Shown: positions 14,965 to 16,505 of the stretch, piece after piece
Position numbering within the stretch: position 1 is the first letter of the stretch
Layout of the letters: the number at the start of each line of letters is the position of its first letter
Assembly (NCBI GenBank): GCA_005880875.1
Contig: VBJI01000080.1
Span: 1-36,225, forward strand
Direction: 5' to 3'
Length of the DNA stretch: 36,225 nucleotides
DNA from: Chloroflexota bacterium
Lineage (GTDB): Bacteria; Chloroflexota; Dormibacteria; CF-121
The notes under the pieces: generated by a model
The model's input: the letters and a program-made list of their open reading frames with translations, nothing else
What the model was told of the DNA's origin: nothing
Database searches by the model: none
Program-made: the position numbers and the translations under genes

Positions 14965-15303
14965 GTGTTTCGCGTGGGGCTGCTGATCACGGTGATCGTC
15001 GGCATCTGGGGCCTGGTGACCTATTTCCGCCGGCAACCGACGAGTGGTGGGTACCGATCGCTACTGGTCATTACCGAAGGCGTCTTCATCCTCCAGGGCC
15101 TGATCGGCATCGGCCTCTTCCTCGGTGGTCGACGCCCGCACGACAGCCTGCACTGGCTCTACGGCGTCCTGCTGGTGATCGCGCTGCCGATCGCGGCGAC
15201 CTATGCCTCCGGGCGCGAAGGCCGCCGCGAGTCGCTTGTCTATGGCATCGCGGGCCTGTTCATGGCTGGGCTGACGATCCGCGCGTTCGGCACCGGCGGC
15301 TAA
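14965..15303 (+). CDS. Small four-helix membrane protein of unknown function
   Basis: A 112-residue hydrophobic protein with about four helices (VGLLITVIVGIWGLVTYF; LLVITEGVFILQGLIGIGLFL; HWLYGVLLVIALPIAATYA; LVYGIAGLFMAGLTIRAF) and positively charged loops. No family was recognised. With the GTG at 14965 the first helix begins at residue 3. The frame is open to 14914, and a CTG at 14935 would add an amphipathic start (NFWLSAHQYVFR) that looks like real coding sequence, so translation may begin there. It is divergent from the broken PIG-L gene. Past its stop lies a hairpin that works as a terminator only for the opposite strand. Confidence 0.7.
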   Translation: MFRVGLLITVIVGIWGLVTYFRRQPTSGGYRSLLVITEGVFILQGLIGIGLFLGGRRPHDSLHWLYGVLLVIALPIAATYASGREGRRESLVYGIAGLFMAGLTIRAFGTGG

Positions 15304-15315
15304 ACCAGCGACGCA

Positions 15316-15344
15316 AATAAAAAGGGGCCCCTTGCGGAGCCCCT
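15316..15344 (-). terminator. Intrinsic terminator of the 19-residue basic protein gene
   Basis: AGGGGC at 15323-15328 pairs with GCCCCT at 15339-15344 around a 10-base loop. On the minus strand the stem is followed by a T run (fwd AATAAAAA, 15316-15323). It begins 13 bases after the small gene's stop, the expected place for its terminator. Confidence 0.8.
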
Positions 15345-15356
15345 GGTCACCGCTGT

Positions 15357-15416
15357 CTAGCGGCTCTTACGGGTCGACTTCTTGGCCTTCTTGGTGGCCT
15401 TCTTCCTGGTCGCCAT
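15357..15416 (-). CDS. Tiny lysine-rich basic protein, 19 residues
   Basis: A complete 20-codon gene. The peptide begins MATRKKATKKAKK and ends STRKSR: 10 of 19 residues are Lys or Arg and the rest are mainly Ala, Thr and Ser, like the tails of histone H1-type nucleoid proteins. Three features make it credible despite its size. It has a perfect 10-base Shine-Dalgarno (AAGGAGGTGA, minus strand of 15420-15429) three bases before ATG. It is followed within 13 bases by an intrinsic terminator. Its codons are mostly AAG/ACC/GCC, as in its GC-rich surroundings. It lies 111 bases after the MBL-fold gene on the same strand. It may bind DNA, RNA or the ribosome; this is inferred from charge alone. Confidence 0.72.
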   Translation of the reverse strand: MATRKKATKKAKKSTRKSR

Positions 15417-15419
15417 GCG

Positions 15420-15455
15420 TCACCTCCTTATCGCGTGAGCGGCGAACCGCTGCGC
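15420..15455 (-). promoter_or_regulatory. Perfect Shine-Dalgarno with upstream leader hairpin of the tiny basic gene
   Basis: TCACCTCCTT at 15420-15429 on the plus strand is the full complement of the extended ribosome-binding sequence, giving AAGGAGGTGA in the mRNA. Just upstream in the transcript, 15438-15442 pairs with 15447-15451 around a UUCG loop, and flanking GCG/CGC (15433-15435 with 15453-15455) extends the stem. No confident -10/-35 pair was found in 15456-15527. Confidence 0.7.
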
Positions 15456-15527
15456 ACCGCGTGGATGTGCGCTTGGGGAGATAACGCTCCGTCCAAAACG
15501 ATCTTGCAGAATTACCTCAGGGGCGGG

Positions 15528-16505
15528 TCAAAACAGTCGCAGCTGGTCCACCGCGCCGAGCGCTTTTGCGCGCAGGCCGCGGCGGCGAAGATGCATCGCG
15601 AGCTCCTCGTCGAAGCCCAGCACCGTGTAGGTCAGGCTCGCACCAACCTGCTCCGCGTAACAACAGAGCTCCTCGAAGTCGGCGTGATCCGACAGCGGAA
15701 AGACCGCGTCAACCTCCAGCCGATCCTTGAGGCTGCGGTCCATCGCCCATCCGGTGAGGGCCGCCGTTTTGAATTCGCCGACGAGCTCTTTTAGGCCCTG
15801 ACGGCGCGCTGACGGCGGCGTGATTACGACCGTTGGATGGAGCGCCGGGTCACCCAGGCGATGATGATCGGGGAAATCACAGCCAAGCTCTCGATACACT
15901 TCCGTCACGCCGAATAACGACGGATGAAGTGCGATGCGGAGGCCTTCGGCGGCGAGCGCGGAAAGGATCTCCTGGCCTTTCCCCAACGAGTAACCGAGCA
16001 GCACCGGCGTGGCGTGCCCGTCCAGCACCGAGCGACACCAGTCCACCATCGAGGCGATCACCTCCGCGGCGTCCGGAAACCGATAGTGCGGCTTGCCGAA
16101 GGTGCTTTCCAGCACCAGGACGTCAGCCGGGACGGCCTCGGCGGGGGCACTCGTGAACCCGGTGCGGGTCTTGAGGTCGCCGGTGTAGAGGACACGGCCG
16201 AAATCCGTCTCGACGAGGGTCTGCGCCGACCCGAGGACATGGCCGGCGGAATGGAAGGTGAAGGAGCAACGATCGAGCGTCATCGGCTCTCCGTAAGGGA
16301 CAGCCTCGACCGTCCCGAGCGACGGGCGACGATGGGTCACGAGCCGGCGGGTGGCCGGGGTGGCGTACGCGAGTGCGTGGGCCGCCACGTGGTCGCTGTG
16401 CGCGTGGCTGATGATGGCGCGCGGCCGCGGCTGTCGCGGATCGAGCCAGAGCTGCTGCTCGGGAAGGTAGACGCCGCTGTCCCAGAGGATGGGGTAGCTG
16501 AGCAC
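15528..16505 (-). CDS. Metallo-beta-lactamase-fold exonuclease-like protein (beta-CASP type)
   Basis: A 325-residue MBL-fold protein of the group annotated as DNA-ligase-associated exonucleases, related to Artemis and CPSF73. Metal ligands occur in HAHSDH (residues 34-39), SAGHVLGSAQ, YTGDLK and the late LSDHADF. LLGYSLGKGQEIL and VVITPPSARRQ match the beta-CASP-like part. These proteins are thought to process DNA or RNA ends with zinc. In many genomes they sit beside an ATP-dependent DNA ligase; no ligase is in this window. GTG at 16505, 11 bases after the stop of the zinc-ribbon gene, so they are probably one transcript. The nucleic-acid substrate is unproven. Confidence 0.83.
   Translation of the reverse strand: MLSYPILWDSGVYLPEQQLWLDPRQPRPRAIISHAHSDHVAAHALAYATPATRRLVTHRRPSLGTVEAVPYGEPMTLDRCSFTFHSAGHVLGSAQTLVETDFGRVLYTGDLKTRTGFTSAPAEAVPADVLVLESTFGKPHYRFPDAAEVIASMVDWCRSVLDGHATPVLLGYSLGKGQEILSALAAEGLRIALHPSLFGVTEVYRELGCDFPDHHRLGDPALHPTVVITPPSARRQGLKELVGEFKTAALTGWAMDRSLKDRLEVDAVFPLSDHADFEELCCYAEQVGASLTYTVLGFDEELAMHLRRRGLRAKALGAVDQLRLF

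Follow-up and report, generated by a model that had tools for sequence, protein, structure and literature searches.

Introduction

Bacterial histone H1-like proteins are already known from several lineages, including Hc1 and Hc2 of Chlamydia, the proteins of Bordetella and Burkholderia, AlgP with its KPAA tail and the tail of HupB, which have in common a Lys/Ala-rich, repeat-like polycationic sequence that is presumably disordered. Tails of the KPAA type, as in AlgP, were reported to bind DNA in vitro, and AlgP associates with polyphosphate granules, its C-terminus being needed for spacing (PMC9239181). Very short basic proteins are also represented by bTHX and by bL37 of actinobacteria, a 24-aa protein restricted to one bacterial lineage (PMC5876184). 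Another kind of short frame, the leader peptide of amino-acid attenuators, is rich in one amino acid and followed by a terminator. An annotation cut-off of about 30 aa is visible in public databases (PMC11796252).

The products of the microgenes analysed here are Lys/Ala-rich, low-complexity polycations and in composition resemble H1-like proteins in the broad sense, but they consist of the tail only, with a total length of 19–27 aa and no other domain, and they are separate genes of which two or more occur per genome. They share with bL37 and bTHX the size, the basicity and the restriction to one lineage, whereas they differ in their low-complexity KAAKK pattern and in having several variants per genome. 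A short frame rich in lysine with a terminator behind it likewise recalls the layout of attenuator leaders, but a same-direction controlled gene downstream is lacking. No prior description of tail-only, stand-alone microgenes of 19–27 aa, below the 30-aa limit, with several per genome and conservation across species, was found in the open-access literature, nor any account of them in Chloroflexota.

Materials and methods

The window, i.e., the whole stretch of 36,225 nt that was analysed, is contig 215 of a Chloroflexota MAG with 250 contigs (2.53 Mb; GC 0.657), hereafter G000. Its family (f1) comprises 18 genomes of soil bacteria from four genera, and the class sample of 110 genomes consisted of f1 (18), f2 (32), f3 (42) and f4 (18); the MAGs used were 58–99% complete. 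Microgenes were sought by DNA search in 61 genomes, with a strict pattern in a 400-genome sample of the phylum, with a looser pattern (Shine-Dalgarno (SD) sequence, ATG, K/R-KK..KK) in the class, and solely with the strict exact pattern outside the phylum. The SD sequence was compared with the usual, generic 16S 3′ end rather than with this genome's own 16S.

Results

The microgene occupies positions 15357–15416 of the window on the minus strand, from the start codon ATG (15416–15414) to the stop codon TAG (15359–15357), and encodes a 19-aa peptide of 2.2 kDa (MATRKKATKKAKKSTRKSR) with 10 Lys/Arg residues, in agreement with the 20-codon gene that the initial annotation had described without stating the strand. 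In the DNA search of 61 genomes, each of the 18 f1 genomes matched strongly at a single site, and the remaining matches were fragments of 19–31 bases with marginal E-values. All 18 loci encode the peptide, which is identical in 14, carries S14A in three and has a one-codon insertion in one. S14A is the only replacement, and 8 of the 9 variable codons are synonymous, compared with a synonymous share of 22% expected from random single changes (P ~4e-5 under a uniform-change model that ignores phylogeny). Among the 17 copies of equal length, eight variable sites are at third and two at first codon positions, one of the latter being a synonymous Arg change, and the pairwise differences amount to 282 at third, 58 at first and 0 at second positions. 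Mean identity to the window in f1 is 0.945 for the coding sequence and 0.941 for the preceding 40 nt, 0.51 over the 50 nt past the stop and 0.64–0.77 farther upstream. This pattern of change indicates that the lysine-rich frame is a real, conserved protein gene. Conservation in relatives, by which the initial annotation had proposed to check the gene, was found for the frame and its SD in 18/18 f1 genomes and for the terminator in most of them, together with synonymous changes. A scan of GTDB with the exact pattern MATRKKATKKA returned 16 Chloroflexi MAGs and two matches in Acidobacteria, the latter rejected as microgenes because they belong to proteins of 129 and 108 aa.

The SD sequence TAAGGAGGTGA (15420–15430, minus strand), separated from the ATG by CGC (3 nt), is a perfect match of 11 bases, one more than the full 10-base site that had been claimed, and the sole 11-base anti-SD match within the window, compared with 34 matches of 7-base substrings. 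The sequence TAAGGAGGTGACGC is identical in 17 of the 18 f1 genomes, and G017 has CAAGGAGGTGACGC. Farther upstream, the UUCG leader hairpin of the initial annotation (GCGG-UUCG-CCGC, 15439–15450, minus strand) does exist and its stem is nearly invariant in relatives, but its loop is of the g(UUCG)c rather than the extra-stable c(UUCG)g type, the stem is broken by an A.C mismatch in G006, the loop reads UCCG in G016, and no covariation or compensatory change was found among the f1 relatives compared. It is preceded by a second inverted repeat, GCGCAC...GTGCGC (15452–15472, minus strand), with a variable middle that is shorter in several relatives. A bipartite element, CTGCAAG-N16-CGTTATC (15480–15509, minus strand), is located at promoter position about 65 nt before the ATG; both halves are invariant in f1, and the spacing is held even with a different spacer (G015). 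The genome contains one exact match; when up to two mismatches are allowed, 42 sites match, compared with 22 for a reversed control, on which grounds the element was not taken as a general promoter. Since the exact match is unique, it is by position that the element is probably a promoter or operator. A scan for the sigma-70 consensus promoter gave no match.

On the 3′ side, the claimed T-tailed terminator is present at 15315–15344 (minus strand), its stem AGGGGCTCC/GGGGCCCCT with a GCAA loop (15344–15323) beginning 12 nt past the stop and being followed by the T-rich tail TTTTATTT. The terminator scan is weak by itself, because 2 kb contained three such sites where shuffling predicted 1.1; the hairpin is nevertheless kept with altered sequence in relatives, one pair having both sides changed in five of them with pairing preserved. 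The region is diverged or rearranged in G016 and G015, the two most diverged f1 genomes. These two genomes also lack a small hairpin spanning the stop codon (CCGCU-AGAC-AGCGG, 15350–15363, minus strand), whose pairs are kept in most relatives, with G-U variants in three. An Rfam search of the microgene region yielded no family at the gathering threshold, and the sub-threshold matches BjrC68 and ctRNA_p42d were rejected as matches to a hairpin plus T-run.

The upstream neighbour (15528–16505, minus strand) encodes an MBL-fold (metallo-beta-lactamase), ligase-associated exonuclease-like protein, which matches TIGR04122 with 228 bits, below the cut-off of 325, and shows 64–91% identity in relatives; on the side away from the microgene it is flanked by a radical SAM gene. 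Downstream, a 112-aa DUF998-like protein is encoded convergently (14965–15303, plus strand), and the window contains no directly adjoining co-directional gene after the terminator. The order MBL, microgene, convergent DUF998, PIG-L and MFS is kept in most f1 genomes. In G016, the microgene is reversed relative to the MBL gene, which is there the convergent one, and this difference in relative orientation implied that the microgene is a unit of its own that excludes the MBL gene.

A second stand-alone microgene, encoding the 21-aa peptide MAAKKKAGGKKKAAKKSSKKK, is present with an SD and its own terminator in 18/18 f1 genomes (G000:C101:20162-20208, L163, and 17 relatives). It starts with ATG or GTG, 9 of its 11 variable codons are synonymous (P ~2e-5, under the same uniform-change model with phylogeny ignored), and its 3′ side carries a G/C-rich hairpin with a UUCG loop in several genomes. 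Moreover, G000 and most f1 genomes encode an H1-like protein of about 155 aa (150–166; MPAKKKSSKKATAKRST...), whose N-terminus (MPAKKKSSKKATAKRS...) is of the same kind as the microgene peptides and whose tail SERIKIGERPPEQTWPGGG is conserved (G000:C2:1766-1804, L164). This protein matched HC2 (PF07382) with E 5.6e-8 and 33.6 bits, below the cut-off of 40, the NCBIfam H1-like profile with 30.2 bits, below the cut-off of 80, and weakly a Burkholderia H1-like protein (E 4.9e-7); microgene peptides of 21–24 aa matched no Pfam (HC2 PF07382) or NCBIfam profile. A further short lysine-rich frame, MAKKGGKKGYAKPKTTTKPKPKK, was seen behind AAAGGAGG at G003:C5:20048-20083 (L188).

Within the class, microgenes of 20–27 aa were identified in at least 32 of the 42 f3 genomes, with the peptide types M(M)AKKKAAKKPAKKAAKKTSKKK, MAAKKKAAKKTAAKKKPAAKKKK, MPAKKKAAKKATKKTAKKSAKKK, MAAKKKAVKKAVKKAVKKATKKKK and MAKKKAPAKKATAKKAPAKKASSKKK. 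All are preceded by GGAGG-type sites and nearly all have a G/C-rich hairpin behind them, in most cases GCCGGGG...CCCCGGC; the Ala codons GCC, GCT, GCG and GCA are interchanged, and the lengths vary by whole codons. Tandem copies occur in G039, G106 and G053. Just before the SD, most f3 microgenes have an imperfect palindrome, TGGAACC(TA)TCGGGTCCA, followed by TATC (loci L145-L182), a possible operator or promoter common to this gene type. Lys/Arg account for 10/19, 11/21 and 12/23 residues of the microgene peptides, the rest being mainly A, T, S, P and G, and the pI is 11–12. The reversed-pattern control gave 0 matches in the 110 class genomes, the looser-pattern matches listed for f2 (32 genomes) and f4 (18) are not such microgenes, and in the 400-genome phylum sample the strict pattern matched only within the class, with none in the 345 genomes outside it. 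Variants richer in Arg or with another spacing may escape the patterns, so that absence from f2, f4 and ten f3 genomes refers to these patterns only. Given the low complexity of the sequences, the f1 and f3 genes are treated here as similar rather than as homologous.

HU is often considered near-universal among bacteria. The 19-aa product itself is far shorter than the 90-position HU/IHF profile (PF00216) and does not belong to that family. In f3, PF00216 was detected in 1 of 42 genomes, canonical HU being missing in 41/42, many of them more than 90% complete, so that f3 is apparently a bacterial family without HU; neither HU nor a microgene detectable by the patterns was found in ten f3 genomes. 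In f1, PF00216 was detected in 16/18 genomes as a divergent protein at 34–42 bits (a 115-aa HU-like protein common to most f1; G000:C209:52699-52959, L247), and canonical HU (114 bits) was found only in G015, being missing in 17/18. The families in which no microgenes were found have PF00216 in 28/32 (f2) and 18/18 (f4) genomes, together 46/50. The occurrence of microgenes thus coincides with a missing or altered canonical HU, and none were detected in the families f2 and f4 that possess it, which is a lead and not proof. Fisher tests of the two distributions are extreme with genomes rather than events as the unit counted, and since only four families are involved the inverse relation possibly reflects one or two evolutionary events.

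Discussion

We consider the microgenes best read as genes for tail-only, histone H1-like polycations that coat or compact DNA, with a probability of roughly one half. With its own ribosome site and terminator and probably its own promoter, the stand-alone microgene would give rise to a short mRNA, whose product would be an unfolded polycationic peptide with a charge of about +10 over 19 residues, equivalent to the free C-terminal tail of an H1-like protein. Such a peptide would most probably bind DNA non-specifically through its charge and help to neutralise and compact the nucleoid, where the 21-aa product of the second microgene and the H1-like protein of about 155 aa would be its partners, in lineages whose canonical HU is missing or diverged. 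The likeness to H1 tails, the longer H1-like protein encoded alongside and the distribution of HU favour DNA as the binding partner. The initial annotation had already suggested the likeness to histone H1-type tails, and the second microgene, the longer protein and the inverse HU distribution strengthened it.

On the other side, the 19-mer is more nearly invariant in f1 than a purely charge-based tail would need, and this would be consistent also with docking to a partner, for instance the ribosome. The near-invariance therefore makes a lineage-specific ribosomal or ribosome-associated microprotein, threading into rRNA like bL37 or bTHX, the main rival, and the small size, the basicity, the single copy per f1 genome and the strong SD fit it as well. 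We nevertheless judge it unlikely, as there are several variants per genome with lengths of 19–27 aa, the f3 peptides consist of interchangeable KAAKK-type repeats that lack anchoring residues, aromatic ones included, and the f1 microgene is not adjacent to ribosomal genes. A comparison of an f3 peptide with PDB chains gave no match at E 10, a test weakened by low complexity.

Charge would equally permit a peptide that binds polyanions, chiefly RNA or polyphosphate rather than DNA, acting as an organiser of condensates or granules, and this is possible because H1-like tails bind DNA and one such protein, AlgP, associates with polyphosphate granules, its C-terminus being needed for spacing (PMC9239181). 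The neighbourhood contains no pointers to polyphosphate or RNA metabolism, and the HU distribution would be left unexplained, for which reasons we regard this reading as decidedly unlikely.

That the functional product is a small regulatory RNA with a terminator, the frame being incidental, might be suggested by the nearly equal conservation of the f1 leader and coding sequence, by the terminator and by a folding z-score of -2.4. It is rendered highly improbable by the excess of synonymous codons in both f1 genes (8/9 and 9/11), by the ATG/GTG start swap, whole-codon indels, TAG/TAA swaps and free synonymous change in f3, and by a covariation term of about zero in a region without an Rfam family at threshold. 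We give hardly any weight to an antimicrobial role of the cationic peptide after secretion or release, which the charge and size would suit: the 19-mer contains no residue more hydrophobic than Ala apart from the initial Met, and hence no hydrophobic face, it has no signal sequence, no export or immunity genes were recognised next to it, and its sequence is invariant across species. An attenuator with a lysine-rich leader peptide, whose layout of short frame and terminator the microgene shares, is rejected by gene order, the gene directly downstream being convergent in the window and relatives (the MBL gene in G016) with no co-directional gene to control after the terminator.

With respect to the reading as DNA-binding H1-like tails, the occurrence of the microgene set in lineages that lost or changed HU suggested that the 19-mer may be a minimal DNA-packing peptide. 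We propose tentatively, and with some doubt, that two soil Chloroflexota families replaced or remodelled HU packing with sets of 19–27-residue tail-only polycations made from dedicated single-gene transcripts.

The several conserved genes per genome, with 57–81 coding bases, lie under the gene-finder default of about 30 aa, as the initial annotation had expected, and reveal a systematic blind spot. If the DNA role holds, tail-only polycations would rank among the smallest chromatin proteins that genes encode; such minimal proteins would bear on how little protein organises a bacterial chromosome, and the microgenes would let one ask how the loss of HU is possible.
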